Under the pieces are notes generated by a model. That model was not told the DNA's origin, ran no database searches, and saw only the letters and a program-made list of their open reading frames with translations. From the IMG/VR virus record IMGVR_UViG_3300042387_001124, positions 1 through 36,759 of that record: 36,759 nt of DNA. One strand, written 5' to 3'. Of this stretch, positions 3,324-20,590 are shown in pieces; the stretch's first letter is position 1; the number at the start of each line of letters is the position of its first letter. Origin of the DNA: a virus. The translations under genes and the position numbers were made by a program.

Positions 3324-3897
3324 GCATAAGATAAATTATACAAATCTTTTTTTAGCGGGTTGGTATAATCCTGATATTACTATATGCGATGAATTGATAG
3401 AATATTATAAAAATTCTGAGTATAAAGCACCAGGAAAATCGTTTTATATTAATGAAAAGATCGTTGACAAGTCTGCCAAGGATAGTATCGATTGTATAAT
3501 ATCAGACAACGCACTTAAACAAAAATATATAGAATATCTTCAAAAAACAGTCGACTTATACATAACAAAATATCCTTATTGTAATTACTACGATCCATGG
3601 ACTATTGTCGAAAATATACAAATACAACATTATCCTATTGGCGGAGCATTTTTTTCTTGGCACACTGAACGTGGGACAGGAAAACGCTATTTAGATAGAC
3701 ATTTAGTTTTTATGACTTATTTGAATGATGTGACAGATCAAGGTGAAACAGAATTTTATCACCAAAATATTAAAATTAAACCTGAAAAAGGGTTAACTAT
3801 AATTTGGCCTGCTGATTGGACTTTTACTCACAGAGGGCTACCATCGCTTACACAAGAAAAATTTGTTGTAACTGGGTGGTTTAGTTATGTGTCTTAA
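3316..3897 (+). CDS. 2OG-Fe(II) oxygenase (prolyl-hydroxylase-like)
   Basis: This 193-residue protein has the double-stranded beta-helix core of 2-oxoglutarate/Fe(II) oxygenases in its C-terminal half. The pieces visible are YPIGGAFFSWHTE (106-118), RHLVFMTYLND (128-138), GETEFYHQ (143-150), GLTIIWPADWTFTHRG (159-174) and a final strand EKFVVTGWFSYV (181-192). The likely iron ligands are His116, Glu118 and His172, an HxE...H set in place of the commoner HxD...H, with Lys182 as a possible 2OG anchor. The N-terminal 95 residues are probably family-specific helices. It overlaps the small protein gene upstream by 8 bases and the convergent 3894 gene by 4 bases. The substrate is unknown; proteins of this kind are common in marine myoviruses and may hydroxylate a protein side chain. 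Confidence 0.85.
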   Translation: MYEHKINYTNLFLAGWYNPDITICDELIEYYKNSEYKAPGKSFYINEKIVDKSAKDSIDCIISDNALKQKYIEYLQKTVDLYITKYPYCNYYDPWTIVENIQIQHYPIGGAFFSWHTERGTGKRYLDRHLVFMTYLNDVTDQGETEFYHQNIKIKPEKGLTIIWPADWTFTHRGLPSLTQEKFVVTGWFSYVS

Positions 3898-4607
3898 TCA
3901 AAAGACTTTTTATTCCAAAATAATTTCTTATAGCCACCATACATAAACTGTTTAATAGCCATTGTAATTTTAAGTTGATTTTTTTCGTCGTGTTCCGATG
4001 CTTCCGATTGCCACGATTCTCGCTTAAACGGAATGATTTGATACATCGGTGTTCCTTTTTTAATTAGTCCAGAGAAATTTTCTTGTAAAAGGAATGGCAA
4101 ATTAGACCCGGCTTCTGATTGCTTAAATCCATCTGCATCAACTACACCAGCAAGTGTTTTAAATGGTAAAAGATCATGATTGAACGGATGAGTAATTATA
4201 CAACTATATCCCGGGGGTAGTTCAGGAAACCAAGGAGGATGCCAAGTAAAGTGATTCGTTAAATACCCATCAATTTTTGGATAAGAATTTGATACATGTT
4301 CTGAGCGTTCACTCATTATTTTAGGACCTGAGGCATAATAAAAAAGAGTCTTATCTTCTTTCTTTTCAATAACGATGTCGCACCATGTTTCTTGTATGTA
4401 CCCCATATGAAAAGAATCTAAAAAAGGCATACACAGTTTAAATGTAGCATTCGGTTTTCCATTCGCTGGGTTGAACTCTGGTTTTTTGGTGTAGAAAGGT
4501 GTTGCACTTTTATACCAATCTGGTATGTATTCAGAGGCGGGTTTTGGCGGATTAACCGTGTATTCAGATAGTTGATCTACAGGATTAAATTTTATTTTCT
4601 TTCTCAT
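3894..4607 (-). CDS. Conserved marine-phage-type protein of unknown function
   Basis: This 237-residue soluble protein has no signal peptide or membrane segment. Distinct stretches are PPKPASEYIPDWYK (20-33), HPPWFPELPPGYSCIITHPF (132-152 region), LAGVVDADGF (around 172-181) and GTPMYQIIPFKRESW (around 205-219). I recognise this pattern from uncharacterised proteins of marine phages and bacteria, possibly an existing DUF family (DUF6065 is a guess), but know of no function. Aromatic and proline content suggest a beta-rich fold. The ATG directly abuts the stop of the SGNH hydrolase gene, with no gap. It is the last gene of the long minus-strand run and meets the 2OG oxygenase gene tail to tail with a 4-base overlap. 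Confidence 0.75.
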   Translation of the reverse strand: MRKKIKFNPVDQLSEYTVNPPKPASEYIPDWYKSATPFYTKKPEFNPANGKPNATFKLCMPFLDSFHMGYIQETWCDIVIEKKEDKTLFYYASGPKIMSERSEHVSNSYPKIDGYLTNHFTWHPPWFPELPPGYSCIITHPFNHDLLPFKTLAGVVDADGFKQSEAGSNLPFLLQENFSGLIKKGTPMYQIIPFKRESWQSEASEHDEKNQLKITMAIKQFMYGGYKKLFWNKKSFD

Positions 4608-5516
4608 TTAAAATCCGATTGTTATACTTTTATCTTGTAAAGTTATTAGTTTATCTTCTTGTATTTTTTTCATTAAAATATTAGATAATGTAAAAAATTC
4701 TTCGGAAGAGTATTTTCCACTGTGTTTAAGTTTTTTAAATTTTTCAATTATAAAACTTCTAGAAGAGTCATGATTATACACGATATCGAGTAATGGTTTC
4801 AACTTCTCATTTAACCATAAATTGTGCATATAAGGAGTAGGATGCAAATCTACATAATTGTCTTTTTCGAATGTCCATATATCATTTTTATTTAATTTTA
4901 CAAACTCAAATAACGGATCGACCCATTTAGAATTTTCCCATATATGTTTTTCATAAATTCTGAATTCAGGAAATAGTTTCCAAATAGGCCATTCTTCAGA
5001 ATTTTTAATTATTTCAATTGCTGACTGATCTGACACTCCTATGTGTTCTCGTTTAGAAAATACTGTGTCATATCCTAAATTTCTAATATCCCCCAAGCTA
5101 GTCATAAGCCACGTGCAGCCAGCTGATTTAAGCAGTTCTTGAGCTAATATTATCATATTCAGAGTATGGAGTACAAACCCTCGTTCTGAAAATAATGCAT
5201 TTGCATGTTTTTTATTTTTATTGTAAAAACTTGAATCGTGATAAACAGCCCACCCATCTATTGCATTTTCTTTTTTGTTGAAGGTGTCTTTGTACCAATC
5301 ATTACGTATATGGCTTGACCATTGTATTATGACAACATCATCTTTGTTTATAACATTACGTGCATGACATTCTGATAATCTTTCTGCTATAGCTCTATTA
5401 CCTATCCCTGGTAATCCCCAATTTTGATATTCTTCGAACTCAAGAGATAAAAGATCTGCCCACGTTGGCCAATCGTAGTTTGTAAAACTACAACCAAAAA
5501 CAAATAACCTACTCAC
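4608..5516 (-). CDS. SGNH/GDSL-like hydrolase
   Basis: This 302-residue protein has SGNH-hydrolase blocks. FGCSFTN near the start places the likely nucleophile at Ser10. NWGLPGIGNRAIAERL (32-47) fits the Gly block, VVIIQWSSHIRNDWY (61-75) fits the block-III strand, and VDLHPTP (222-228) gives the Asp-His pair (Asp223, His225). The last 70 residues are Lys-rich and probably helical. Such enzymes remove or transfer acyl groups on sugars, lipids or proteins. In this context an O-acetyl esterase or acyltransferase acting on a glycan or on the product of the neighbouring enzymes is reasonable but unproven. Its start overlaps the end of the hydroxylase-like gene by 8 bases. Confidence 0.75.
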   Translation of the reverse strand: MSRLFVFGCSFTNYDWPTWADLLSLEFEEYQNWGLPGIGNRAIAERLSECHARNVINKDDVVIIQWSSHIRNDWYKDTFNKKENAIDGWAVYHDSSFYNKNKKHANALFSERGFVLHTLNMIILAQELLKSAGCTWLMTSLGDIRNLGYDTVFSKREHIGVSDQSAIEIIKNSEEWPIWKLFPEFRIYEKHIWENSKWVDPLFEFVKLNKNDIWTFEKDNYVDLHPTPYMHNLWLNEKLKPLLDIVYNHDSSRSFIIEKFKKLKHSGKYSSEEFFTLSNILMKKIQEDKLITLQDKSITIGF

Positions 5517-6021
5517 CTAATACTCCAGTTATCTGCATAGCATATCTCTTTTGAGTACTAAAATTGTAAAATGCATGAGGTGTATGGCCTGTCCACCCAA
5601 AACAATCACCTGCTTTCCAGAACGAATATACTTTATTTTCTATTTCTAATATTTGTCCTTCTATACCATCTTCTAACATCACAACTATTCTTATAATATT
5701 GTAATCGAAATTTAAATTATGAAGTTCTCTATATCTATCATATCTATCACTGTGTTTTGGAATAAACTGGCCTGGATTGAAAAGGTTGATTGCAATGCTT
5801 ATGTTTTTTAAGTACTGAAAACAAGGTTTGATATTTTCATACACACCTGCTGGCATAGGATTTGGTTCAAAATAATTATAAAGTGTTAAGGACTCGATAG
5901 AATGTCCTGCATCTACATATTTCTTGAGTAAATCCGATCCTCGGTATTCGGCACGTTTATAGTTTAAACTTTTGAAATCATCGATATTCCAAGCAGGGGA
6001 TATATGATTAAAAATTATCAT
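5509..6021 (-). CDS. Asp/Asn beta-hydroxylase-like oxygenase, copy 1
   Basis: I chose the ATG at 6021, which shares its A with the stop of the upstream amidinotransferase gene (TAATG), over an open extension to 6075 that would run 55 bases into that gene. The resulting 170-residue protein resembles aspartyl/asparaginyl-hydroxylase-type 2OG oxygenases. It has IPKHSDRYDRYR (87-98) with likely ligands His90 and Asp92, then IIRIVVMLEDG (109-119), GQILEIENKVYSFWKAGD (122-139), GHTPHAFYN with His149 or His146, and KRYAMQITG with Arg159 as a likely 2OG anchor. It lies directly after the amidinotransferase gene and shares motif order with the protein at 7952-8539, so the two are paralogues. The substrate may be a small molecule of the pathway or a protein residue. 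Confidence 0.72.
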   Translation of the reverse strand: MIIFNHISPAWNIDDFKSLNYKRAEYRGSDLLKKYVDAGHSIESLTLYNYFEPNPMPAGVYENIKPCFQYLKNISIAINLFNPGQFIPKHSDRYDRYRELHNLNFDYNIIRIVVMLEDGIEGQILEIENKVYSFWKAGDCFGWTGHTPHAFYNFSTQKRYAMQITGVLGE

Positions 6022-7076
6022 TATGAAAAGTAATCTTGTAACTCGCCGGTACGTTTTACATCTAAAGTAGCACAATGGAATCCTCCACTCATTGTCCTAG
6101 CTTGGCGGCAAGGCAATCCAATAGTTTCAATTCCGTGCTTATCTAGAATACGGCGCAATTCATTTTGTTCAATGTCGCATATTACTAGGTTTTCATTCAC
6201 GCTTAAAAAGTTTAAACCAATATATGGACTGCACGGAGCTACTCCAGTATTTGCGGCAGGCACATGTAATTGATCTCCAGTAACCCAAATTTTATCCCAA
6301 TCTTTAAAAATTGGTGGGTACCAATTTTCGTTTAATCTATCCGCATTAAACAACACTAATCCTGGTCGTAAAGGTAAAACAGTAGAATCAAAATGTGCAA
6401 AACTATAATATCGTTCAGCTACATGTAATTTATATCCTCTTGGTTCAAGTATACTCTTCAACCATTTAAATCCTAGCAGATTTCCGCTGTTAGATACTTG
6501 ACATAATAAATCTTTTCCTAATCTTACAACATTTGGCGCATCAAAAATAATTTCTTTATCAACTAAAGTTGCTTCGGTTCTGTCTTCTAACTGATAATTA
6601 TCGTCAGTTAAAATAGGTTTAGGAGCACAAATCCATTCTGTACCTTCCTGCATCCATTCGTATAAATGTTTATAGTATGCTCTAGTTTCAAAATATCTAG
6701 CCCTCATTGGACTTGGACATTCTATAATTAAATTGTCAAGGGGTAACAACAAATCTCTAGGACAGAATGTATACCACCCTGTAGTCTCCCACTCCGGGGT
6801 ACTGAATTTTTTCCTATGATCTATACTATCTGGTCGTCGTACTTTAACTCCTAGAGTTTTTAGAGTATCGGACAATCTTTCTAAATCTTCGTTAGCTTCG
6901 TCTTTTATCCACTGTTCGTGTTCAATGCCGTCAAATTGTTTTATGTCGTCATACTTTTCTCCGCCATAGATAAAACTGTGTGTGCTTTTATTCATTGTAG
7001 GATGCATACTAAAATCAGCAGTTCCTATTATGATTTCCTCAAGTGGATCCCAATCATTATGTGATTGTACGGGCAT
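6021..7076 (-). CDS. Amidinotransferase (glycine/inosamine-phosphate amidinotransferase family), copy 2
   Basis: This 351-residue protein is a full-length amidinotransferase that uses arginine as amidino donor. Landmarks are DEANEDLERL (59-68), FCPRDLLLP (104-112), MRARYFETRAYY (124-135), IIFDAPNVVRLG with likely catalytic Asp179, VSNSGNLLGFKW (194-205), FAHFDSTVLPLRPG with His228, and SGGFHC with nucleophile Cys335. The MRARYFE stretch and the length are closer to typical GATM/StrB enzymes than copy 1 is. Its start overlaps the upstream aminotransferase gene by 20 bases, the same gene order as in the pair at 1414-2986. The acceptor is probably the amine made by that aminotransferase, but its identity is not visible. 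Confidence 0.92.
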   Translation of the reverse strand: MPVQSHNDWDPLEEIIIGTADFSMHPTMNKSTHSFIYGGEKYDDIKQFDGIEHEQWIKDEANEDLERLSDTLKTLGVKVRRPDSIDHRKKFSTPEWETTGWYTFCPRDLLLPLDNLIIECPSPMRARYFETRAYYKHLYEWMQEGTEWICAPKPILTDDNYQLEDRTEATLVDKEIIFDAPNVVRLGKDLLCQVSNSGNLLGFKWLKSILEPRGYKLHVAERYYSFAHFDSTVLPLRPGLVLFNADRLNENWYPPIFKDWDKIWVTGDQLHVPAANTGVAPCSPYIGLNFLSVNENLVICDIEQNELRRILDKHGIETIGLPCRQARTMSGGFHCATLDVKRTGELQDYFS

Positions 7077-7959
7077 AATCTAGTCCTTTAATAAATTGTT
7101 TATGAAAACTTAATCTGTTAGTAGTGCTGCCACGATTGTATTGATTCCATTCTTCGCCGCCGATTCCAAACAAAACTGTTTTAGTAGGCTTTACAGATAA
7201 GACATTACAAAAATCGAGCTGTTTCTGCATGTATTTAGACGAAATATAATCTGGAGAGAAATTTTCTAGAAATTTCATACCTAAAGAAGCACCAATTTTA
7301 TTATTGTAACTTATTTTATGGTAAACAAACATAGTGTCGTCGTCGTCAATGCGTGTATATCTCATACCAATTCGGGCATATGCTACTGGAAATGTTTTAC
7401 TTAAACTAAAAGTTATGTCTGTAATACACGAATATGCAAAATCAAATTCAATATTTCTACAAATTCCAAAATATGCACAATCTACTAGTACAGGTACATT
7501 AAGTGAATTGCATTTTCTCATCAATTCGTGATAATTGAGATGTATGTCTCCTGTATCTGCAAATGGTAGACTAATAATTACTGCATCGTTAGGAAGAATA
7601 TCGTCGTCTTCTAACCATGCCCAATTATATTCCGCTCGCCATGCCAATTTATGATACATATATTCGCCTTTAAAACATCTAAATCTGCGATTATGATTTC
7701 TTAAATAAAATTTATCAAACCCTTCAGTTGTTCCATTACTGTAACACTTAAATTGAAACTGATCCAATCCAATCAAAGTGTTAGCTGCTGTGCTACGAAT
7801 CCAACGATCGTAGGTATGTAAGTATTCGTCAATAACAGTATTATTATGAACACATCGTAAGTCAAATGGCTCTCTTAAAATTTTTAAAGTTTCTGGATCT
7901 TCGATAGCGAATGCACTACCAAAGTCTAAGCTTCTTTTATCGTTAGGTATTTTATTCAT
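7057..7959 (-). CDS. PLP-dependent aminotransferase, fold type I
   Basis: This 300-residue protein has class I/II aminotransferase landmarks. CYSNGTTEGFDKF (72-84) fits the glycine-rich phosphate loop. VPVLVDCAYFG (155-165) has Asp160 in the place that pairs with the PLP nitrogen. DITFSLSKTFPVAYARIG (181-198) has Lys188 as the probable Schiff-base lysine and Arg196 as a phosphate contact. TTNRLSFH near the C-terminus may hold the substrate-carboxylate Arg. It is shorter than the usual 380-420 residues, so it is a reduced member. It differs clearly from the DegT-type protein at 2390-2986, so the two aminotransferase-amidinotransferase pairs use different aminotransferase classes. It overlaps its neighbours by 8 bases upstream and 20 downstream. 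The keto substrate is unknown. Confidence 0.8.
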   Translation of the reverse strand: MNKIPNDKRSLDFGSAFAIEDPETLKILREPFDLRCVHNNTVIDEYLHTYDRWIRSTAANTLIGLDQFQFKCYSNGTTEGFDKFYLRNHNRRFRCFKGEYMYHKLAWRAEYNWAWLEDDDILPNDAVIISLPFADTGDIHLNYHELMRKCNSLNVPVLVDCAYFGICRNIEFDFAYSCITDITFSLSKTFPVAYARIGMRYTRIDDDDTMFVYHKISYNNKIGASLGMKFLENFSPDYISSKYMQKQLDFCNVLSVKPTKTVLFGIGGEEWNQYNRGSTTNRLSFHKQFIKGLDYARTIT

Positions 7960-8539
7960 CTAAATATGATATTTGCATAGCAATTATATCGGATTTACCA
8001 AAATTACAAGTTCCATGCCATGCAAAACTTTCCCATGTATATACATCTCCGGCAGTCCAATTTCCTAATAATTCATTTCCTATCTGTATTACTTGTCCTA
8101 CGTCCCAGTCATTCATTAAAATTACAGACCTTTTAATCTTCTCAGCGTATTCAATCGTAAGATTTTTTCTATGAACGAATGTAGCATATGTATCAAAGTG
8201 CCACACTAACATATGCCCTGGAGTAATTTTTATAAAATTATAGCTCAATGTCTTATAAGGAAATTTGTCTAATATAGTTTTTAAATTTTCATTTAATGAC
8301 GGGCAGTGTGACATTAAATGCCAAGTACTTTGATCAGGAATTTTCCATTCTTTATGAATTTCTTCTAGGTCACGCTTCATATCAGTAGTAAAACTATCCC
8401 ACGGATCGTCATCAGGTACTTCCTTAGTTTGGACAGTTTCTATCCAATCAAAATTTAAATCGTTACTGGTCCATGTACAATCTATTCTAAATTTGACTGC
8501 ATTGTATTTTGTTAAATCTTTAAACTTCTCTAAGTCCAT
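7952..8539 (-). CDS. Asp/Asn beta-hydroxylase-like oxygenase, copy 2
   Basis: This 195-residue protein is a paralogue of the product of 5509-6021. Both share the order H-x-D strand, a VILMND or VVMLED turn, a GQVIQIGN or GQILEIEN strand, a W-x-AGD turn, a second His and a final AMQI strand. Here the likely iron ligands are His114 and Asp116 (VWHFDTY) and His175 (AWHGTCNF). The second part of the motif, GNWTAGDVYTW (159-169), is typical of cupin-like oxygenases of the aspartyl/asparaginyl hydroxylase group. The Arg that anchors 2OG in copy 1 is not obvious. The gene overlaps the radical SAM gene upstream by 20 bases and the aminotransferase gene by 8. The substrate is unknown, and a non-catalytic role cannot be excluded. 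Confidence 0.7.
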   Translation of the reverse strand: MDLEKFKDLTKYNAVKFRIDCTWTSNDLNFDWIETVQTKEVPDDDPWDSFTTDMKRDLEEIHKEWKIPDQSTWHLMSHCPSLNENLKTILDKFPYKTLSYNFIKITPGHMLVWHFDTYATFVHRKNLTIEYAEKIKRSVILMNDWDVGQVIQIGNELLGNWTAGDVYTWESFAWHGTCNFGKSDIIAMQISYLDE

Positions 8540-9470
8540 ATAAATGCCTTAAAATATATTCTTTATTTGGAATAGTTATATCATTTAATAATAATGAAAA
8601 TTGTGTCTTTTCCATTTCTGATAAATTTACAACATCTAATTTCTTAGGATATGTCAGTATATTGGTGTTCCAAACGTATTGATTTTGATTAATAAAATTG
8701 GCTAGATCTTTAACTCCGTGCCAATTATTGACATGTAATACTGAATTTATCTCTAAGGAAAAACTCGTCGACTTTAATTGTTCTAGGAACTTAATTATGT
8801 CAGACCATTTACTGCCTTTTCTTACTTTTTCATTTAGGTCTGCAACTCCATCAATACTTACGTAAATTTTAACGCTCTTGAATGCGTTTAAAACTAAAAT
8901 TTCTTTCTCGCTCAAAAGAAAAGTTCCATTAGTATAATAAATTACTGATACATTTTCAGGATTAGATATTTCTTTGAGAAAGCGGATATGCTTGTTAGTC
9001 ATTAACGGCTCTCCCCCTAAAAATAAAATTTTATCTATACTTTTAGGAAGATTTATAAACTCCGTCGTTGTTAAAATATTAATTTTTTTATTGGTAGGAT
9101 TTTTAATGTTAGCCCATGTAGAGCTCCATTCTTCCCAACATCCATCGCATGCCAAGTTACATATATTGTCAAAACCAATTTCTAAAAATTTTAATTCAAC
9201 TTTATTAGTAGAATATTCTTTATTAAATTTTTGTCTTAAACTTTCTTTTCCTTGATTTTCTTCAGTATAACATTTTTCGCATTCTGGAAATCGAACTCCA
9301 TTTAAAGAACCTTCTCTAAGTTTATTATATTCTTCAATATGTAAGACAGCACTTACATCTCCCGTAAAGGTAGCTATGGGTTGTTTAAATCGGCAACAAG
9401 GAAAAATACGATTTCCAGGGCGAATGTTAGTATGCACCCAAAATGCTGAACATTTACTCATGTTGGCCAT
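8520..9470 (-). CDS. Radical SAM protein with N-terminal cysteine (SPASM/twitch-like) segment
   Basis: This 316-residue protein has a radical SAM core placed after an N-terminal cysteine segment. The SAM-cluster motif is CNLACDGC (Cys104, 108, 111), followed by ILFLGGEPLM (about 148-157) and YYTNGTF (about 178-184), which are the usual SAM-binding features. The N-terminal part has Cys7, FPCCRFKQ with Cys25-26, and ECEKC with Cys64 and Cys67, which could bind an auxiliary Fe-S cluster as SPASM/twitch domains do; in most family members that domain is C-terminal. It differs from the four other radical SAM proteins in this run. Start: ATG at 9470, although ATG at 9461 is possible. It overlaps the upstream gene by 13 bases. 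It probably modifies a peptide or a small molecule through a radical; the substrate is not visible. Confidence 0.88.
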   Translation of the reverse strand: MANMSKCSAFWVHTNIRPGNRIFPCCRFKQPIATFTGDVSAVLHIEEYNKLREGSLNGVRFPECEKCYTEENQGKESLRQKFNKEYSTNKVELKFLEIGFDNICNLACDGCWEEWSSTWANIKNPTNKKINILTTTEFINLPKSIDKILFLGGEPLMTNKHIRFLKEISNPENVSVIYYTNGTFLLSEKEILVLNAFKSVKIYVSIDGVADLNEKVRKGSKWSDIIKFLEQLKSTSFSLEINSVLHVNNWHGVKDLANFINQNQYVWNTNILTYPKKLDVVNLSEMEKTQFSLLLNDITIPNKEYILRHLYGLREV

Positions 9471-10768
9471 TTCTCTGTAAGTGTTTTTATTACACGATAG
9501 TTATGTTCTAGTATAGGAGTCATTGATTGATACAAATTCCGAAGTGTCGTTATAGGTAAATTATCGATAAAATCAATAACTTTAAAAATTTTAATCAATC
9601 GCTTTTCATGATTTTCTTCTCTATCATACCCTTCATCCCAAAAATTTTCAAAGGTTTTAAAACCGTATTTTTTTAAGTATTCTAATGTATAAGGAGGAGC
9701 AACTAGTATAAAAGGTTTATGTCTATAAATTGCGTTTAATGTTTTCTCGCTAAATGTAGAAATCGGATGACTATATTTTGTTTCGTTTATAACGGCACAA
9801 AAACAACTATCATACTCGCTATTAGGAGCATAATCGAAGGACATTTCAAAATTAGGATTTGGGATAGCAGAATTCATTCCTATGACTAAAGACCCCATAT
9901 TATCTAATTTTTGTAAATTTGTTATCAACTTATTAAAAATTTTAAAATTATTTTTATGCCAGGACGATAAATCAAACCATAATTGATTTTTTAGGGATCC
10001 GTAAATAGATTTTTTTTGATCAAAAGACATTATTGAATTTTTATCTAATAGATATGCAGCGATTAAATGTCTTACTGCTTTATATTTTCCATTAGCAGAT
10101 AAAAATTTATGAGTTATTTGATTAGCAGTTCTTGGATGAATATAACTTATTGGTTTATCCAGTATTCTTTTAGCTACACTTACAACATACATATTCCTAA
10201 CAGCTAAATTCATTGTTGGATATTGTTTCTGTAAATATTTTTGAACATTATAATCTCCACAATAAACAGTGACATTATTGAGATTATTTTTGTCAATAAA
10301 CTGTTTTATACTGTCTAGTTCAAATGAATAAATTGTTTTTAAATTTTCTTGAGTGGATTCAAATCCTCTAATACTTGAACCATATTTTTTGTAATATTCA
10401 TTTGTACTTGCTTTTGTAGGAGGGCCTTCGAGATAGTTTTTTATTGTTGGACCTGTATTAAGATACAGATCCTCAAAGAGATAAATGCATAGGCCTTGTG
10501 TATTAAAAATCTTAATATGATCAGGTTCGCAAATTAAATCTTCTATTTGTTTTAAAGAACCGCATCCTGTACAAACAAAATGTGGTTTTGATTCTTCTGC
10601 CAAACATGTATCTTTAAAAATAGTATTATAAAAGTCAATAAAACTGTTTACTCCAATTACACTCAATGAAGATTCGCTGAAAATAGAACCGTTTTTTAAC
10701 AGTAACCTATTTTCAATAGCAGGATTCATAAAATTTTGAAAGACTACGTGACTAAAAAACTCATCCAT
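9458..10768 (-). CDS. Glycosyltransferase-like protein, copy 1 of a paralogous pair
   Basis: This 436-residue protein has no signal peptide or membrane segment. The C-terminal part contains FSEKTLNAIYRHKPFILVAP, then EYLKKYGFKTFENFWDEGYD, then a helix with ENHEKRLIKIF. This S/TEKT...PF...GF-TF...DE-YD pattern occurs in a family common in marine phages and bacteria and resembles the donor-binding half of GT-B transferases such as exostosin or fucosyltransferase types. In the middle, FLSANGKYKAVRHLIAAYLL takes the place of the N-R-R-x-R segment seen in relatives. The N-terminal 120 residues (CTGCGSL and ICIYLFEDLYLN-like strands) are family-specific. It is a clear tandem paralogue of the next gene upstream and overlaps it by 8 bases. 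The glycosyltransferase assignment is by motif resemblance only. Confidence 0.55.
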   Translation of the reverse strand: MDEFFSHVVFQNFMNPAIENRLLLKNGSIFSESSLSVIGVNSFIDFYNTIFKDTCLAEESKPHFVCTGCGSLKQIEDLICEPDHIKIFNTQGLCIYLFEDLYLNTGPTIKNYLEGPPTKASTNEYYKKYGSSIRGFESTQENLKTIYSFELDSIKQFIDKNNLNNVTVYCGDYNVQKYLQKQYPTMNLAVRNMYVVSVAKRILDKPISYIHPRTANQITHKFLSANGKYKAVRHLIAAYLLDKNSIMSFDQKKSIYGSLKNQLWFDLSSWHKNNFKIFNKLITNLQKLDNMGSLVIGMNSAIPNPNFEMSFDYAPNSEYDSCFCAVINETKYSHPISTFSEKTLNAIYRHKPFILVAPPYTLEYLKKYGFKTFENFWDEGYDREENHEKRLIKIFKVIDFIDNLPITTLRNLYQSMTPILEHNYRVIKTLTEKWPT

Positions 10769-12140
10769 TATACTTAAACTTTGAAATATTTTGTATTATA
10801 CGATAATTATGTTCTAAAATAGGTAACATCTTAATATATAGTTCTTTTAATTCGTCTATTGAAAAACTATTAATGTAATCTATAATACGAAATATTTTGA
10901 TTAGACGAGATTCGTGATTTTCTTCTTGATCATAACTTTCGTCCCAAAATTCGTCAAATGTTTGTATTCCGTATGATTGCATATATTCTAAAGTGCGTGG
11001 AGGTGCTACTAATATAAAAGGCCGAAACGATTTTATAGCATTTAATGTTTTTTCACTAAACTGCCCCATAGGGTATGCAAATCTTGCTTCCGTTATCACC
11101 GAACAAAAGCATTGTTGATAACTACTAACTGGCACTGGTAAAGATTCTAATGCTACTTCGCTTTCTATGTTTGTATCTATAGACAAAGAGTTTGGCATTA
11201 TATTAAGTTGATGTCTTATTTTAGAATAAATTTCAGGGCAATCAGTCTTCCATTTGTCTAAATCAAACCATAAATAATTTTCTAATTTACCCCAAATTGG
11301 TATAGATTTATCTTTCCTGTCGTCAAAAATAACAAATGGCGAATCTTCAATTTTAGTTTGATACGAGCATAATGCAGACATATTTAATAGATAGGCTGCT
11401 ACTAACTGACGATAACCGTCATACCTTCTATTTCCGCACCAAAATTTGTATAATATAGTTTCCGATGACGGTGGTGTGCTATAACTGTTATATTCGTATG
11501 ATGTAAATCTACTATCCGAATGTCTAAATAGCGAAGTTAGAAATATGTCTTGAGTAGCAAGTGTCATTTCTGGATACGAATTTTTGAAATGTTTTTCGAT
11601 ATTATAATCTCCAGTATACACAGTTACTTTTTTTAAGTTGTTTTTAATTATAAATTTTTTTAAATTTTCAAATTCGAAACAATACATTTTAGAAATGTTA
11701 TCATAAGTTGATTCAAATCCAACAACACTTGGTTTAATTATATTAAAAAGCTCTTCTCGAGAAGAATCAAATTTTAAAGAATTTACAAATGGACGTTTAC
11801 TATCGCTGATATCTATAAAAATAGTTTCATAAAGATATATTTCTAAACCGACTGTATTAAGATAGTTTTTGATATCTTCAGAATACATAATTTTGTCTAA
11901 GTGCGGCCAGCTTCCGCAGGCTGTAATAATTAAATAAGGAACATTATAATTTTTTAAAAAAGAATCAGAGTAATAATCTTTATAATAATCAAAAAACGTA
12001 TACTTGGGGTACCTATGATTATTTGATTCAGATAAAAATTTTCCGTCATGAAATATAATACGGTTTTCTCGGTCAGGTAATGACAAATTTTCGTATACGA
12101 TTCCAAAACAACTTTCTTCTTTTGTATCAAATATTTTCAT
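10761..12140 (-). CDS. Glycosyltransferase-like protein, copy 2 of a paralogous pair
   Basis: This 459-residue protein is a paralogue of the 9458-10768 product. It shares VTVYTGDYNIEKHF (versus VTVYCGDYNVQKYL), KFWCGNRRYDGYRQLVAAYL, FSEKTLNAIKSFRPFILVAP and a GIQTFDEFWDESYDQEENHE-like stretch. The NRRYDGYR segment is better conserved here than in the sister, fitting the R-rich site of the wider family, so this may be the more typical copy. The N-terminus (CFGIVYENLSLPDRENRI) also lines up with that of the sister. Its start overlaps the end of the upstream radical SAM gene by 14 bases. A role in adding sugars to a small molecule, glycan or protein fits the context but is inferred. Confidence 0.55.
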   Translation of the reverse strand: MKIFDTKEESCFGIVYENLSLPDRENRIIFHDGKFLSESNNHRYPKYTFFDYYKDYYSDSFLKNYNVPYLIITACGSWPHLDKIMYSEDIKNYLNTVGLEIYLYETIFIDISDSKRPFVNSLKFDSSREELFNIIKPSVVGFESTYDNISKMYCFEFENLKKFIIKNNLKKVTVYTGDYNIEKHFKNSYPEMTLATQDIFLTSLFRHSDSRFTSYEYNSYSTPPSSETILYKFWCGNRRYDGYRQLVAAYLLNMSALCSYQTKIEDSPFVIFDDRKDKSIPIWGKLENYLWFDLDKWKTDCPEIYSKIRHQLNIMPNSLSIDTNIESEVALESLPVPVSSYQQCFCSVITEARFAYPMGQFSEKTLNAIKSFRPFILVAPPRTLEYMQSYGIQTFDEFWDESYDQEENHESRLIKIFRIIDYINSFSIDELKELYIKMLPILEHNYRIIQNISKFKYNG

Positions 12141-13041
12141 TTTTTATTGCGATAACATTTTCTTTAGAATGTTTTATTGAAAAAAGTTTATTGTTATTAC
12201 ACATATCGCAAAGATCAATGTGTTTATTAGAAGTTTCTACAAAGTGTTTTAATTCAGTTACAGTAGGATTTTTTAAATTAAGTGCTTTATAATTTAAATA
12301 TTTTGACCAGTCGTTATCGTCGAGTTGATTTTTTATTTTTAAAATTTTAGGAAGAATTGCAAACCACGAACACTTGTATAATTTAGATTCGTATAGTAAA
12401 TGACAATTTGGCATCGAACATCCATTTTTATAAGATCCTTCGGGGTCATTTGTTGCAAAAGGTTTTATTTTATTTTCATTATTTGTATAATAACAGCTAT
12501 AAAAATATTCTGCGTCTGCTATTCTAACATTGAATGTGCTAGAAGAATATAATTCTACACTGTCTTGAACTACACCCCATTTAATTGTACTCTTTTTATT
12601 CATATGATTAGTTTCGAGGAATTTCTCTAGTGTTTTATGAAATTTCTTAGCTATGATGTCGTCTGAGAACAATTTAAAATGATTGGTGATATCAATCACG
12701 CAAGGGTGAAAAGTTTTGCAAAATTCTATTAGTTTATTCTGAAATTTATCTAGCAGTAGTCCGTTTGTACAGATTCCGATAGTGCTATTAGGAAATTTTA
12801 TTCTTATATGTTCGACAATCTTTTCTATAGAATCCCAATATAAAAATGCTTCTCCTCCCATCAGATCAAACTCATTTACATCGGCATAATTGGAAAGATC
12901 ATCGATACTTTCAAATATCGAATCTAATGTTGGATCGTGCTCGTAATTTTTTATAATGTCTGACGCCGAAGTGCATCCATTACAGGATAAATTGCATCGA
13001 TGTCCATAAAAAATTTCCACCATTGGCAGTGATATTTTCAT
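12127..13041 (-). CDS. Radical SAM protein with twitch/SPASM-like C-terminal cysteines (divergent fourth copy)
   Basis: This 304-residue protein has the SAM-cluster motif CNLSCNGC (Cys16, 20, 23), the SAM-binding turn MGGEAF (61-66) and a CTNGLLLD strand (91-98). The C-terminal part has Cys208, Cys213, Cys224 and a CDMC pair (Cys278, Cys281), the same layout as in the three downstream-type paralogues of the tandem set, and would hold an auxiliary Fe-S cluster. GGEAF replaces GGEPF, and the sequence between the motifs differs widely, so it has probably taken a different substrate or step. It joins the upstream radical SAM gene by a TAATG overlap and the glycosyltransferase-like gene by 14 bases. 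The family does radical chemistry on peptides or on sugars and cyclitols; the substrate is unknown. Confidence 0.9.
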   Translation of the reverse strand: MKISLPMVEIFYGHRCNLSCNGCTSASDIIKNYEHDPTLDSIFESIDDLSNYADVNEFDLMGGEAFLYWDSIEKIVEHIRIKFPNSTIGICTNGLLLDKFQNKLIEFCKTFHPCVIDITNHFKLFSDDIIAKKFHKTLEKFLETNHMNKKSTIKWGVVQDSVELYSSSTFNVRIADAEYFYSCYYTNNENKIKPFATNDPEGSYKNGCSMPNCHLLYESKLYKCSWFAILPKILKIKNQLDDNDWSKYLNYKALNLKNPTVTELKHFVETSNKHIDLCDMCNNNKLFSIKHSKENVIAIKNENI

Positions 13042-13898
13042 TAAAACTTTACCTTACTTTTTGACAATGGCCAAATTGGCTTAATAATTTTTCTTTCTGC
13101 ACATAGTTGACATTGTTTTATATAAGTTTGTATTTCATTAAAAAATTGTACCAGTTTATCTTCCGAATCAAATGGATCAGCGGGCACATATGAATTTAAA
13201 AGGTCTGCTCCTTCTTGTTCAAATTGAAATTGATTTGTCAGATCTGAAGCGATTGCGGTCAAATAGCATTTATATATTTTACCTTTCATAAAAAAGTGCG
13301 ATGGTCCACATTCTTGCATACAGAGGTCGTGTGCTTTAACTGGATCACTTCTTCTAAAGAAGGTTATTTTATTTTCTATTTTTTCTGTTGATGCTTTAAA
13401 AAAAACATAAGTGTTATATAGTTTTATTACATTTCGATCATTTAAAATATAATTTGTTACTGATCCATTGACAACTTTAGTTGCATTAATGAGGGCGGAT
13501 ATCTTGTTTATAGATAGTTCTATGCTATTTCTTAATGCAGGATCATGTACACATACATCAAAAGAAAATCCTTTGTTAATTATTTCTATAGCAAGGTCAA
13601 TATTATTCTGAATGTACGTTCCATTGGTGCTTATTCTAAAATTTTTAGTAGAAGTAAAGTATTTCGAAACTTGATTGACCCAATCAATTAATTTTGGATT
13701 TGCAAAAGGTTCGCCTCCTATTAAATTTATAGTATCTACATCTAACTTCTTACTCCATTCTATATAATAATCTTCATAATCTTTCCAAAATAAATGACCC
13801 TTAAAATTTCTATTGTTATAAGAATCACAATTTTCACATGTTAAATTACATACATGTGTTACATGAAAAAACATTTCTTTTAAGTAAATTTTTTTCAT
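13041..13898 (-). CDS. Radical SAM protein with twitch-like C-terminal cysteines (tandem copy 3)
   Basis: This 285-residue radical SAM protein has CNLTCENC (Cys17, 21, 24), IGGEPFANP (60-68) and ISTNGTY (89-95). The C-terminal cysteines are Cys193, Cys197, Cys211 and the CQLC pair (Cys263, Cys266), a spacing like the auxiliary-cluster site of twitch-domain enzymes such as BtrN. The tail PIWPLSKSK is shared with its two tandem neighbours. Conserved HDP (118-120) and RRSDP (182-186) segments among the three copies may be substrate-site elements. It starts inside the end of the preceding copy by a 4-base ATGA overlap. With 285-286 residues in each of the three, they are recent-looking duplicates that have kept every cysteine. 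Confidence 0.92.
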   Translation of the reverse strand: MKKIYLKEMFFHVTHVCNLTCENCDSYNNRNFKGHLFWKDYEDYYIEWSKKLDVDTINLIGGEPFANPKLIDWVNQVSKYFTSTKNFRISTNGTYIQNNIDLAIEIINKGFSFDVCVHDPALRNSIELSINKISALINATKVVNGSVTNYILNDRNVIKLYNTYVFFKASTEKIENKITFFRRSDPVKAHDLCMQECGPSHFFMKGKIYKCYLTAIASDLTNQFQFEQEGADLLNSYVPADPFDSEDKLVQFFNEIQTYIKQCQLCAERKIIKPIWPLSKSKVKF

Positions 13899-14755
13899 AC
13901 TAAGTTAGTTTTCAATTTAGATAATGGCCATATTTGTTTGACTGTGTTTGTCTCTGTACATAATCTACATTGTTCTATAGGATTTGGTAAATTTTCTATC
14001 CATTCTTTAATAATATGTTCTTCGTCGAATGGTGAACACGATTTGTATTTTAATAATAATTCTTTTGCTCGAGGTTCGACCTCGAATTGATTACATAGTG
14101 GTTTTGAAACTGCGGTTAAAAAACATTTATATAATCTTCCTTCCATAAATGTGTAACAATATCCACACTCTCCATGAGATTTAGATGGATCACTATCATG
14201 CATATAGATTATATTATTTTTTAAGCTACGAAGACTTTTTTTAGAAAACACATATTTTTTATCTAATTTTGCTATTTTTCGAGAGCCTATGTAAAAAATA
14301 TCACAATACTCACTACTTTTTTCTTTTCTGATATTTTTAAAAATTGAAAATATTTCTTTTAAATTTTCTTCTATTTCATGAAATAAGCTAGGATCGTGTA
14401 CATTAATGTCTAGCCATATATTTTGTCTTAATAACTCTTGACATTCTTTAATTTTGTGTTTTAGATATGTACCATTAGTTGCAATGTCAATTTCTTTAAG
14501 ATTGGGCCATAAGGATTTTATTGACATAGTCCAATCAATTAATTTTGGATTTGTAAATGGCTCGCCGCCTATAATAGTTAAACTGTTCAGTTCTAGTTTT
14601 TTACTCCACTTTTTAAAATATGCTTCGTAATCTTTGAAATAATAATGCCCTTTAAATTTTAAATTATTATAAGTAATACAATTTTCACATGTCAGATTAC
14701 ACACATTTGTTATGTATATTTGAACGTTTTCATCTAAACGATACATTGTTGTCAT
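13895..14755 (-). CDS. Radical SAM protein with twitch-like C-terminal cysteines (tandem copy 2)
   Basis: This 286-residue radical SAM protein is a paralogue of both tandem neighbours. The SAM-cluster motif is CNLTCENC (Cys19, 23, 26), followed by IGGEPFTNPKLIDW (62-75) and IATNGTYLKH (91-100). Auxiliary cysteines are Cys197, Cys200, Cys211 and CRLC (Cys263, Cys266). Where the sisters have an RRSDP segment it has MHDSDPSKSHGECGYC, so the first auxiliary pair is C-x2-C here and C-x3-C in the sisters. That small difference may reflect a changed substrate pocket or cluster site. It ends in IWPLSKLK as the sisters do. It is joined to both neighbours by 4-base ATGA overlaps, so translation of the set should be coupled and near-stoichiometric. 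Confidence 0.92.
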   Translation of the reverse strand: MTTMYRLDENVQIYITNVCNLTCENCITYNNLKFKGHYYFKDYEAYFKKWSKKLELNSLTIIGGEPFTNPKLIDWTMSIKSLWPNLKEIDIATNGTYLKHKIKECQELLRQNIWLDINVHDPSLFHEIEENLKEIFSIFKNIRKEKSSEYCDIFYIGSRKIAKLDKKYVFSKKSLRSLKNNIIYMHDSDPSKSHGECGYCYTFMEGRLYKCFLTAVSKPLCNQFEVEPRAKELLLKYKSCSPFDEEHIIKEWIENLPNPIEQCRLCTETNTVKQIWPLSKLKTNLV

Positions 14756-15612
14756 AACTCAATCTTCTTTTTAGCCAATGGCCATATCGGTACTATTATT
14801 TCTTTTTCTGGACAAAGTTGACAAGCATCGATATGATTGTCTAACTCCCTAAAAAATCTGTCTAGATTTTCTGTTGTATCAAAAGGATCTGCAGAATTAT
14901 ATTTTTTTAGCAAATTAATACCGCGTGTTTCGATTTTAAATTGTGACATTAAGTCTTTAGAAATAGCAGTAAAACTACATTTATATATTTTTCCTTTGTG
15001 AAAAACTACGTTAGGAACGCATGTACTCATGCAATATGTATGTGCTTTAACAGGGTCACTTCTTCTAAAAAATGTTGTTTTATTTTCTATTTTATACATA
15101 GAATTTGAGCGGAATACAGTGGCTTCCCAAATTCTTGCTATCTTTTTACCGTTCGCTTCAAAGATTATCGTTGTATTTGTTTTATATTTTTTAAAGTTAA
15201 AAACTGATAAAATATTTTCTAAAGTTTCTTCTATCTCATTTCTAAATGACGGATCGTGAATACTAATATCTAACCAGAATCCTTGTTTTATAATTTCTCT
15301 TGATAAATCTATATTGTGTTTTAAGTATGTGCCATTTGTGCTTATATTAAAATTTTCTACATCTTTAAAATGTGTTTTTAATGATTCAACCCATGTCATT
15401 AAATCAGGATTAGTATATGGTTCGCCGCCAAAGATGTTAACTTCATTTAATCGAATTTTTTTTGACCATTCGATATACATGTCTGCGTGATCTTTCCAAT
15501 AAAAATGATTTTTAAAATTTCTGTTACTATATACATCACAATTATTACACGTCAAATTACAAACATTTGTGATATGGAACACACCTTGTGTTCTGAAATA
15601 TTTTTTTATCAT
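14752..15612 (-). CDS. Radical SAM protein with twitch-like C-terminal cysteines (tandem copy 1)
   Basis: I chose the ATG at 15612, which overlaps the stop of the preceding gene as ATGA, over a TTG five codons earlier. The 286-residue product has CNLTCNNC (Cys18, 22, 25), FGGEPYTNP (61-69) and ISTNGTYLKH (90-99). Auxiliary cysteines are Cys194, Cys198, Cys212 and CQLC (Cys264, Cys267), again resembling a twitch domain. The tail PIWPLAKKK matches the other two copies. It is the first of the radical SAM genes in transcription order and directly follows two small beta-rich proteins, one of which could be its substrate or partner. The reaction cannot be told from the motif alone; peptide modification and cyclitol or sugar oxidation are both known in relatives. 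Confidence 0.92.
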   Translation of the reverse strand: MIKKYFRTQGVFHITNVCNLTCNNCDVYSNRNFKNHFYWKDHADMYIEWSKKIRLNEVNIFGGEPYTNPDLMTWVESLKTHFKDVENFNISTNGTYLKHNIDLSREIIKQGFWLDISIHDPSFRNEIEETLENILSVFNFKKYKTNTTIIFEANGKKIARIWEATVFRSNSMYKIENKTTFFRRSDPVKAHTYCMSTCVPNVVFHKGKIYKCSFTAISKDLMSQFKIETRGINLLKKYNSADPFDTTENLDRFFRELDNHIDACQLCPEKEIIVPIWPLAKKKIEL

Positions 15613-16106
15613 TTTTTGTAAAAACAAAAAATAGGAGAATCGGCATATGTTGCATTTATTTTTACAGAGTTTCCTGCCGCAATTCTTGTCGATGATAATT
15701 GATTTATAGAGATATCATTTATTGTTATTCCTGGAATCAAAGGTATAATTATTTTTTCGTTGTCGTCTATGTCTAATTTTTTTTCTGTTGTTACAGTTAT
15801 TATATCTGCTTCATATATGCTCTCGTCACTCGCTGCAAATGTAACTGCATAAAAATCTTCGGCGCCGGCTGTCCACTTGGTATCAATTCCTTTAATTGGT
15901 CTAAGGTCTGCTAAAACGTCTACAAAAATATCATAATTTCCTTCATACCCATTCATTGTATATTCTATTTTAACATTACCTGCTAATAAGTATAACCATT
16001 GTATTTCCTGTCTTTCTCCAGAATTTAAATATCCTGTTACTGTGTTTGCTGTTCCATGTATAAAAGAAACAGTGAAATCTCTAGCATGTTTTTTTGATAG
16101 TTTCAT
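15609..16106 (-). CDS. Small beta-rich, cupin-like protein of unknown function (paralogue A)
   Basis: This 165-residue protein is made mostly of short beta-type segments with many Ile, Thr, Asn and Asp residues, no signal peptide and a single Cys near the end. It shares WLYLLAGNVKIEY (38-50), a DLRP turn, and a final ISINQLSSTRIAAGNSVKIN-like strand with the protein upstream, which has WIYILEGELFIES and a PKGKSVKFK strand, so the two are paralogues. The arrangement recalls small cupin-type barrels, but no metal-binding His set is evident, so enzymatic activity is doubtful. A late-type box lies 27 bases upstream of its ATG. It is joined to the first radical SAM gene by a 4-base overlap, which makes it a candidate partner, scaffold or target of those enzymes. 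Confidence 0.65.
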   Translation of the reverse strand: MKLSKKHARDFTVSFIHGTANTVTGYLNSGERQEIQWLYLLAGNVKIEYTMNGYEGNYDIFVDVLADLRPIKGIDTKWTAGAEDFYAVTFAASDESIYEADIITVTTEKKLDIDDNEKIIIPLIPGITINDISINQLSSTRIAAGNSVKINATYADSPIFCFYKK

Positions 16107-16132
16107 AATAAATTTAAGTTAAAAATCCAAGA

Positions 16133-16140
16133 TATTTATT
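16133..16140 (-). promoter_or_regulatory. Candidate late-type promoter box (AATAAATA) at the head of the radical SAM genes
   Basis: On the minus strand AATAAATA lies 26 bases before the ATG of the 15609-16106 gene, in the only gap (16107-16141, 35 bases) inside the run of overlapping genes 17030-3894. No strong ribosome site follows it. It is a plausible internal late promoter that would drive the radical SAM and amidinotransferase genes as a unit. Confidence 0.5.
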
Positions 16141-16141
16141 C

Positions 16142-16645
16142 TTAAGTGTTTATCAATAGAATGTGATGAGAATTATTGTCAAGATTTTTAAACTTGACTG
16201 ATTTTCCTTTTGGTAGAATTACTATATTTTTAGTGCTTAATGGCTTGTCTGAATTTGTAAATTCTAAATTTTTGACCAGAGGCAGAATATACGAAATTGA
16301 TGTATCCGAAGAGATAATATTTGTATCTTTTAAATTTTTTACTGAGCAACAACATTTTGAAGAAAATATTAATAAGCAAGCACACCCAGTAATACCAGCG
16401 GTTATCTTAATAAATCCTTCCGAAAACGCTCTAAGATCGTTTAATTTATTATTAGTTACAAAACTTGTTAAATTTTTAGATTTTGCACTTTCTATAAACA
16501 ACTCACCTTCTAAAATATAAATCCAGGATAATTCTCCTTCGTCTATATCATCGATATTTAAAGCATTAATTTCTAATGATTCTTGTGAAAATAAACATAT
16601 ACGCTCTACTCGAATATTATCAATCTGATTTCTTTTGCGTATCAT
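16142..16645 (-). CDS. Small beta-rich, cupin-like protein of unknown function (paralogue B)
   Basis: I favour the ATG at 16645 over a TTG at 16663. The product is 167 residues and related to the next protein: it shares SWIYILEGELFIES, an NDLRAFSEGF turn and a final KGKSVKFKNLDNNSHHILLIN strand. It has a cluster of cysteines in GCACLLIFSSKCCC (five Cys in about 14 residues), absent from the paralogue. That could be a metal site, disulphides, or a modification site for the radical SAM proteins encoded downstream. No catalytic motif is recognised. It overlaps the end of the 16620-17030 gene by 26 bases. Its function is unknown; the pairing with its paralogue and the position before the radical SAM genes are the only clues. 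Confidence 0.6.
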   Translation of the reverse strand: MIRKRNQIDNIRVERICLFSQESLEINALNIDDIDEGELSWIYILEGELFIESAKSKNLTSFVTNNKLNDLRAFSEGFIKITAGITGCACLLIFSSKCCCSVKNLKDTNIISSDTSISYILPLVKNLEFTNSDKPLSTKNIVILPKGKSVKFKNLDNNSHHILLINT

Positions 16646-17030
16646 CGATATTGTCAATAACAATTTCTTCTAGAATTTCATCTACTATAGATGCATATTC
16701 TACTCTATGTTCTACTATTTGATCTGCTGTTTGTAACAACGTATCAACGTCAAATACTAACTCTTTTCCTATGTATTCTTGGTATTTTTTTGCCAAATCT
16801 GGATTATTTTTAAATTGTTCGTCTTTATCTTGTTTTTGTGTAACAGATATACCTGCTCTTGCAATATGTTCTATCACTTTTGCTGGATCTTGAGTATCAA
16901 ACATAGTTGGCTGAAATGCGGCAATAGGATATTCATCAATAGATTTTTGAGAATTTTCTGACGCAAATACTACAATTAAAGAATTACTTTCTTCTTCATA
17001 TTTTAAAATTTTCATTTTGATTAATGACAT
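16620..17030 (-). CDS. Small acidic protein, possibly tail-fibre-associated
   Basis: This 136-residue acidic protein begins after an AGGAG ribosome site (17036-17040), which supports the ATG at 17030 over the internal Met at codon 6. It opens with a beta-type segment (MKILKYEEESNSLIVVFAS) and continues with a YPIAAFQP-like stretch and a helical, charged C-terminal half (KDEQFKNNPDLAKKYQEYIG). It follows the glycine-rich adhesin gene at once, the position where tail-fibre chaperones or assembly proteins are often found. The QKQDKDEQF segment recalls similar genes next to fibres in other marine phages, but I cannot name a family. It is the first gene of the overlapping run that leads into the radical SAM genes. 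Confidence 0.6.
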   Translation of the reverse strand: MSLIKMKILKYEEESNSLIVVFASENSQKSIDEYPIAAFQPTMFDTQDPAKVIEHIARAGISVTQKQDKDEQFKNNPDLAKKYQEYIGKELVFDVDTLLQTADQIVEHRVEYASIVDEILEEIVIDNIDDTQKKSD

Positions 17031-20582: not shown

Positions 20583-20590
20583 TACTTATA
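20583..20590 (-). promoter_or_regulatory. Weak late-type promoter box (TATAAGTA)
   Basis: On the minus strand TATAAGTA differs by one base from TATAAATA and lies 19 bases before the ATG of the 20240-20563 gene, with a GGAG site between. It overlaps the stop region of the giant fibre gene. The changed base lies in the part of the box that is usually constant, so it is less certain than the other boxes. Confidence 0.3.

Follow-up and report, generated by a model that had tools for sequence, protein, structure and literature searches.

What does a phage make with radical SAM, aminotransferase, amidinotransferase and glycosyltransferase-like genes that lie beside its tail fibres, and do these genes act in one pathway? 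We studied this question in the window, by which we mean the whole stretch of 36,759 nucleotides that was analysed (IMG/VR record IMGVR_UViG_3300042387_001124). The window is a fragment of a T4-like phage, and the island of enzyme genes lies between neck and tail-sheath genes on one side and tail fibre genes (among them S74) on the other. For 3894-17030 ORF calling returned 16 genes, the number given in a first-pass annotation of the sequence; every one lies on the minus strand, and 14 of the 15 junctions are overlaps or abutments with a sole gap of 35 bp. The overlapping one-strand run and its fibre neighbours were thus confirmed. A second aminotransferase/amidinotransferase pair, which the annotation had missed, lies at 1414-2986, 0.9 kb beyond the range it had described. 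Table 1 gives the positions of all features.

Table 1. Positions, strands and supporting evidence for the genes of the island and its flanks.
Feature	Position	Strand	Evidence
AT2, second StrB1-like amidinotransferase, cassette B	1414..2400	-	1BWD 3.4e-66
mini-DegT aminotransferase, 198 aa, cassette B	2390..2986	-	NCBIfam sugar aminotransferase models, best 5e-10
phrog_7084 family protein	3894..4607	-	phrog_7084 4.6e-38
SGNH-like protein	4608..5516	-	GCSF motif
AspHa, second AspH-like 2OG oxygenase	5509..6075	-	Asp_Arg_Hydrox 0.03; HxD...H in alignment
AT1, StrB1-like amidinotransferase, cassette A	6021..7076	-	1BWD StrB1 5e-88; conserved catalytic motifs
AmT, fold-type I PLP aminotransferase, cassette A	7057..7959	-	family alignment, PLP residues kept
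AspHb, AspH-like Fe(II)/2OG oxygenase, cassette A	7952..8539	-	invariant H114, D116, H175
TwiRS, radical SAM, N-terminal twitch-type Cys region, cassette A	8520..9470	-	NF033640 N_Twi_rSAM
GTa, GT-B-like putative glycosyltransferase	9458..10768	-	39% identical to GTb
GTb, GT-B-like putative glycosyltransferase	10761..12140	-	model pLDDT 73; Foldseek mostly GT-B enzymes
RS1, radical SAM, C-terminal CxxC region	12127..13041	-	Radical_SAM 1.6e-9; alignment
RS2, radical SAM paralogue	13041..13898	-	Radical_SAM 2.5e-7
RS3, radical SAM paralogue	13895..14755	-	Radical_SAM 9.5e-9
RS4, radical SAM paralogue	14752..15627	-	Radical_SAM 3.7e-11
Small beta-rich protein 1	15609..16106	-	ORF; no family match
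Small beta-rich protein 2	16142..16663	-	ORF; marginal match to protein 1
136-aa phage protein	16620..17030	-	phrog_30444 7e-4
Gp38-like tail-fibre adhesin, flanks island	17040..18032	-	PF05268 4e-8
Tail fibre protein	20586..28775	-	phrog_9851 1.6e-168

The one amidinotransferase reported for the range, AT1, was recovered. Its best solved relative is StrB1 of streptomycin synthesis (1BWD, 5e-88), ahead of HsvA (8e-60) and AGAT (about 1e-57), and by sequence both AT1 and AT2 are closer to StrB1 than to AGAT, HsvA or SxtG, which supports the guanidine chemistry proposed earlier. A creatine-type (glycine) amidinotransferase identity was rejected because StrB1 scores far ahead of AGAT. Annotators label the enzymes of this gene set as glycine amidinotransferase or MoaA. 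The tree resolves AT1, AT2, and StrB1 with bacterial sequences as three separate supported clades (98/95 for the AT1 phage clade and 100/100 for the AT2 phage clade); the phage enzymes stand beside the StrB1 clade and not inside it. Catalytic motifs are kept, with the HxDST-type motif in 152 of 153 AT1-clade proteins and GxHC in 141 of 153, and in some members of the family the Asp of the catalytic Asp/Glu-His-Cys set is replaced by Glu.

The two amidinotransferases are paired with aminotransferases of two unrelated families. AmT, the only PLP aminotransferase in the range first described, has no Pfam match, yet its 16-member family alignment keeps D160, S187-K188 (SxSK, with the PLP lysine) and R196, and we found 369 viral relatives. 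The earlier count of one holds within that range; mini-DegT lies just outside it. At 198 aa mini-DegT falls short of the full DegT/DnrJ/EryC1 fold of ~370 aa, its phage relatives are equally short, and its PLP lysine K108 (in CLSF..xK.LS..RGGMI) is invariant in the three sequences aligned. Both oxygenases that had been described as hydroxylase-like are AspH-like genes, and the HxD...H iron triad is invariant across the 16 sequences of the joint AspHa and AspHb alignment. AspHb alone gave no Pfam match, and the profile searches with AmT and AspH returned no useful solved relative. The true start of AspHa is probably an internal ATG.

All five radical SAM genes that had been counted score above the Pfam Radical_SAM cut-off. 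RS2 is 40-50% identical to RS3 and RS4, and RS1-RS4 share the C-terminal CxxC region in the alignment. The conserved enzyme TwiRS is assigned by sequence to NF033640 (N_Twi_rSAM, 208.7 bits against a cut-off of 170). Its AlphaFold model (pLDDT 88) resembles BlsE, anSME and viperin in the fold comparison. The suggested relation to BtrN was not borne out: we obtained a weak core-domain match (3e-4) for one radical SAM set only, and BtrN was missing from the profile search of TwiRS and did not rank among the 50 best fold matches of that enzyme. The cores resemble radical SAM maturases and stand next to AspH-type oxygenases and fibre genes, as would be expected if the enzymes acted directly on the side chains of a fibre or peptide by 2OG hydroxylation, radical SAM oxidation, transamination and amidination. 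We consider this improbable, since a fold-type I aminotransferase acting on a protein residue would be an unusual step, the kin of StrB1 use small molecules, the sugar-nucleotide genes described below would be left without explanation and the overlapping run has no space for a separate precursor gene. A RiPP maturation cluster is also disfavoured, there being no gap for a precursor gene within the 3894-15627 run; elsewhere the ORFs screened were those of 60 aa or more.

For the remaining genes the earlier labels stood in part. The pair of glycosyltransferase-like proteins is present, but the glycosyltransferase identity is weakly supported: GTa and GTb have no relevant Pfam or PDB profile match, and the best Foldseek matches of GTb are mostly GT-B enzymes with E 6e-3 at best. 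The protein called an SGNH hydrolase shows the motif but no family match; relatives of it occur in two cassette-B loci (L180, L181). Both small beta-rich ORFs exist, and their paralogy is marginal (50 residues, E 6e-4 in a two-sequence comparison).

In order to quantify co-occurrence we clustered the amidinotransferases into groups at 90% identity and counted partners within 4 kb for well-flanked groups. Across the 28 such groups of the AT1 clade we observed an aminotransferase in 26, AspH in 25, a GT-like gene in 23 and any radical SAM gene in 22, and 20 of the 28 had the aminotransferase, AspH and radical SAM genes all together. For the AT2 clade (7 groups) the numbers were 6 for DegT, 6 for AspH and 3 for radical SAM. 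With AmT as the anchor, AT1 was found within 4 kb in 35/40 groups. Anchoring on a radical SAM family, we detected an aminotransferase in 9/9 groups with an amidinotransferase versus 5/31 without (Fisher 7e-6). One lineage (L194, L195, L247) lacks AmT and the amidinotransferase together and keeps the neighbours, and in L202/L208 cassette B is contiguous as DegT-AspH-radical SAM-AT with three GT25-like genes adjoining. RS1 and the Gp38-like adhesin, each used alone as a query, matched only near-identical or few contigs. The AT2 clade repeats the recipe of the AT1 clade with an unrelated aminotransferase, and the distant Campylobacter phages repeat it again. As this combination of genes is found again in many phages that are unrelated to one another, the gene set of the island is not a chance assembly; the co-occurrence that the first-pass annotation had named as its check was found, and a single co-inherited pathway of amidinotransferase, aminotransferase, 2OG oxygenase and radical SAM enzyme is supported across many phage lineages.

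Loose cargo without a common pathway, brought together by the exchange of modules at a hot spot for cargo, would fit the variable neighbour genes and the uneven GC content of the island (0.27-0.295 for the radical SAM and GT genes, 0.33-0.37 for AT1, AmT, DegT and AT2), and the Campylobacter version has been termed an interchangeable module (Timms et al., PMC2853527). We nevertheless judge it highly implausible: the aminotransferase-amidinotransferase linkage persists over many contexts and with both aminotransferase families, and purifying selection acts on the four core genes (dN/dS 0.03-0.21).

The most likely product of a shared pathway is a guanidino sugar, and we infer the order of the steps, the sugar and the acceptor as follows. 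In cassette A (TwiRS, AspHb, AmT and AT1) the 2OG oxygenase and/or the radical SAM enzyme would ready one carbon of a sugar or of a sugar nucleotide, by way of a hydroxyl and then a ketone, AmT would convert the ketone to an amine and AT1 would transfer the amidino group of arginine to that amine, much like the bacterial route to streptomycin. Cassette B (mini-DegT and AT2, with AspH and radical SAM genes in relatives) may perform the same chemistry at a related position or on a related sugar. The neighbouring GT-like enzymes would then link this sugar to its acceptor; since the island sits in the tail module, a fibre protein or another protein of the virion is the most plausible one. We hold this whole reading, from two guanidinylation cassettes to an attached sugar, to be about evenly balanced between right and wrong. 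The sugar is suggested by neighbouring genes, which adjoin only part of the groups and are absent from this window: a nucleotide-sugar epimerase near 12/30 AT1 groups, a UDP/GDP-sugar dehydrogenase near 7/30 AT1 and 5/9 AT2 groups, and a GT25-like gene near 4/9 AT2 groups. These neighbours favour nucleotide sugars over cyclitols, and no cyclitol genes were seen beside the phage enzymes.

The guanidino sugar may end up on the virion fibres, on the host surface or as a free compound. Of the 30 AT1 groups, 18 have a fibre-like gene no more than 8 kb away, most of them on one phage backbone and hence not independent. In the L018/L030 lineage the cassette sits among PRPP/NAD, MetK, FolE and QueE genes rather than fibres, mini-DegT occurs in a surface-glycan-like cluster of Flavobacterium phage immuto, and on a contig of a Bdellovibrionota MAG, where no phage genes were seen, AspH, AT1 and AmT occur with a GTb-like gene, which disfavours a purely virion role. 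These settings are what one would expect of a guanidinylated glycan or small molecule made for the infected host, for example surface sugars against superinfection, an osmolyte or an inhibitor. Such a product appears unlikely to us, as the genes adjoin the tail fibres on the same strand here and the island contains no clear membrane protein, flippase, polymerase or exporter.

Another conceivable product is a guanidino-bearing base in the phage DNA: phages hypermodify DNA using radical SAM and PLP enzymes, and FolE and QueE lie near the cassette in some carriers. That proximity is confined to one backbone, the island has no recognised base-modifying gene, and QueC, which deazaguanine bases need, was not found in several large carriers (G003, G004 and G005, 145-217 kb, records possibly incomplete). 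The absence of QueC lowers the likelihood of deazaguanine modification, and DNA hypermodification as a whole seems to us very unlikely. The search on expression timing gave zero matches to the T4 late promoter TATAAATA, and the sigma-70 and terminator scans yielded nothing above chance.

Returning to the guanidino sugar, the pathway is conserved under strong purifying selection in two clades, with 34 and 12 amidinotransferase groups respectively; its carriers are dozens of unrelated aquatic phages, and the present phage holds two cassettes. Phage 'auxiliary' genes are mostly interpreted singly, while here they form a multi-enzyme pathway that was assembled with unrelated aminotransferases. Such a pathway should yield a guanidino compound, so far unseen, within infected cells or on virions, and it would tie antibiotic-type chemistry to the structure of the phage or to its takeover of the host. 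We put forward only tentatively, as rather doubtful, the broader proposal of a dedicated route by which many aquatic phages furnish a sugar with one or two guanidino groups before joining it to fibres or other virion proteins, giving a positively charged virion glycan. To our knowledge none has been described for any virus, and we found no report of guanidinylated phage glycans in the open literature. The cultured carriers Synechococcus phage S-SCSM2R and Campylobacter phages CP220/CPt10 are available for testing.

Among known systems, the streptidine pathway of Streptomyces performs an aminotransferase step followed by an arginine-dependent amidinotransferase step twice. The phage genes share this pairing and have StrB1 as their best solved relative, but they differ in their separate clades, the lack of visible cyclitol genes and their radical SAM/2OG partners. 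BtrN (butirosin) and BlsE (blasticidin S) are radical SAM enzymes whose substrates are amino-cyclitols or sugar-nucleosides. The predicted TwiRS fold has BlsE among its best matches (TM 0.48), whereas TwiRS differs from BtrN in that its extra conserved cysteines precede the core rather than come after it. In the cultured T4-like Pelagibacter phage Mosig EXVC030M the tail fibres are immediately preceded by genes for Asp/Arg hydroxylases, an AmT-like aminotransferase, a carbamoyltransferase and MoaA-like radical SAMs, but its AmT is only 22% identical and an amidinotransferase was not found. Nishimura et al. (2017, PMC5332604) described, among marine viruses rich in radical SAM genes, an environmental T4-like genome that has 12 such genes as well as an A-type Fe-S carrier; in the parts of that source available to us no amidinotransferase cassette was seen. 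The open literature yielded no description of the wider cassette, although Timms et al. (2010, PMC2853527) noted a module of radical SAM and amidinotransferase genes for the Campylobacter phages CP220 and CPt10. It comprises some five radical SAM genes together with a single amidinotransferase gene and GT-like genes, and phage WX1 combines an amidinotransferase with radical SAMs and with a class I/II aminotransferase; identities to the Campylobacter modules are 26-31% with long tree branches, and the AspH-AmT-AT1 core was not found in CP220. S-SCSM2R (PQ898602), for whose cluster we found no paper in the open literature, has no cassette A as far as seen. Its run of mini-DegT, radical SAM, 2OG oxygenase, inosamine-type amidinotransferase and several GTs corresponds to cassette B, with 57% identity for mini-DegT and 46% between AspHa and the oxygenase beside its amidinotransferase.

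The phage-borne guanidinylation pathway is real and conserved, and the guanidine chemistry proposed in the first-pass annotation was right. The amidinotransferase AT1 matched StrB1 at 5e-88, with HsvA, AGAT and SxtG far behind, and AT2, a second amidinotransferase beyond the range annotated at first, matched it at 3e-66. A tree of 44 proteins contained three distinct clades: the relatives of AT1 (support 98/95), those of AT2 (100/100) and StrB1 with its bacterial homologues (100/96). The branch joining these clades against AGAT and HsvA had a support of only 85/95, and the Campylobacter and Enterococcus proteins sat on long branches with unsure placement. Together with AT2, a 198-aa mini-DegT enzyme whose kin are sugar aminotransferases makes up a further aminotransferase/amidinotransferase pair, which belongs to another clade; AmT, the PLP aminotransferase of the sixteen-gene island, retains the fold-type I PLP residues. 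The jumbo phages L066 and L067 showed a single distant AT1-like gene (37%) with no nearby cassette partners.

Coordinates of the features, in the window or in contigs of relatives (L-handles)
Feature	Location	Strand	Remark
Mini-DegT/AT2 pair	window 1414-2986		just beyond the island
AT2	window 1414-2400		
2OG oxygenase	window 3316-3897	+	phrog_61; between cassettes A and B, orientation opposed to island
Island	window 3894-17030	-	
AT1	window 6021-7076	-	
SAM synthetase-like gene	L030:11265-12365		immediately after AT1
A-type Fe-S carrier-like gene	L015:11653-12003		adjoining TwiRS
B12-type radical SAM enzymes, very large protein	L180:13557-20968		with carbamoyltransferase
B12-type radical SAM enzymes, very large protein	L181:13430-18958		
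Bdellovibrionota cassette	L076:521-4890		

The radical SAM enzyme TwiRS belongs to NF033640. Its model (pLDDT 88) was closest in Foldseek to SkfB, SuiB, MoaA, BlsE, viperin and anSME, all at a query TM below 0.5. The link to BtrN drawn in the first-pass annotation was unsupported. RS1-RS4 group together as one family, sharing CxxxCxxC and, at the C terminus, a CxxC region. On reading the sequences, we encountered a SAM synthetase-like gene in one lineage and an Fe-S carrier-like gene in another, which would fit the demand of radical SAM enzymes.

We scanned IMG/VR from AT1 (65 loci), AmT (369 relatives, loci of 80 taken) and the RS family. All three scans converged, and on co-occurrence the first-pass annotation was right. 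Within 4 kb of AmT, 40 well-flanked groups contained AT1 (35/40), AspH-like oxygenases (33/40), glycosyltransferase-like (GT-like) genes (30/40) and TwiRS (26/40). The pooled AT1 clade comprised 34 groups; the 28 well-flanked ones had an aminotransferase in 26, AspH in 25, GT-like genes in 23 and any radical SAM gene in 22. For the AT2 clade (12 groups, 7 well flanked) we found DegT in 6/7, AspH in 6/7 and radical SAM in 3/7. With the RS family as neutral anchor, an aminotransferase occurred in 9/9 groups with an amidinotransferase versus 5/31 without (p 7e-6, indicative as the groups are not fully independent). In L194, L195 and L247 AmT and the amidinotransferase were both missing, and TwiRS, GT-like and RS genes kept their usual order. 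dN/dS ranged from 0.03 to 0.21; AT1 had the lowest value, and some of the synonymous rates approached saturation.

All 16 annotated genes were present, with 14/15 junctions overlapping or abutting. The near-identical contig L009 extends the 36,759-bp IMG/VR virus fragment leftward with a tail sheath family protein, a virion structural protein, a head-tail adaptor and a dNMP kinase; right of the island lie a Gp38-like adhesin, two 2OG oxygenases, an S74 chaperone protein and two very large fibre genes. The island is thus embedded in a T4-like phage tail module. The T4-type late promoter core TATAAATA had 0 matches on both strands of the window (shuffling expectation 8.6, sd 3.1).

The cassette adjoins fibre genes in the window phage, the L015/L022 lineage and a large lineage that carries an Mtd_N fibre-type gene. 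The cultured Pelagibacter phage Mosig EXVC030M has a like island directly before its tail fibres, but without amidinotransferase: Asp/Arg hydroxylases, AmT-like and ArnB-like aminotransferases, TauD, radical SAMs and a carbamoyltransferase. Two settings count against a fibre destination. In the L018/L030 lineage the cassette sits among metabolic genes including MetK, and AspH, AmT, a GTb-like gene and an amidinotransferase of the AT1 clade occur together on a Bdellovibrionota MAG contig with uvrC and uniform GC, apparently as a bacterial copy of the cassette. Fibre decoration is therefore the leading yet unproven destination of the product.

The substrate is likely a sugar. NAD-dependent epimerases lie near 12/30 AT1 groups, UDP-glucose/GDP-mannose dehydrogenases near 7/30 AT1 and 5/9 AT2 groups, and GT25-like genes near 4/9 AT2 groups; in L215 cytidylyltransferase and GT8 genes flank the cassette. 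Mini-DegT also occurs in glycosyl clusters of Flavobacterium phage immuto and, judging from its sequence, huge phage LR756502. The glycosyltransferase identity first proposed for the GT-like proteins is unproven. StrB1 acts on an amine formed from a keto group by an aminotransferase. The phage pathway would proceed from hydroxylation and/or radical oxidation through transamination to amidination.

The same recipe is present three times: in cassette A (TwiRS-AspHb-AmT-AT1), in cassette B and in Campylobacter phages. Cassette B (DegT-AspH-RS-AT2) is uninterrupted in L202/L208, whereas in cyanophage S-SCSM2R its genes are dispersed among glycosyltransferases. The cassette-B phages L180 and L181 also encode proteins of 1842-1970 aa; that of L180 had no Pfam or PHROGs match. 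The phage-like contig L079, binned as a Chloroflexi MAG, carries an amidinotransferase, mini-DegT and, by eye, carbamoyltransferase-like and halogenase-like genes. The Campylobacter phages combine radical SAMs with an amidinotransferase, in WX1 also with a class I/II aminotransferase. CP220 and CPt10 have unrelated clusters, each of five radical SAM genes and one amidinotransferase, named an interchangeable module and proposed to serve host fitness rather than assigned a chemistry (Timms et al., PMC2853527). Both StrB1-type chemistry and a module in Campylobacter phages had been known before, so the phage pathway is a variant of a kind already known.
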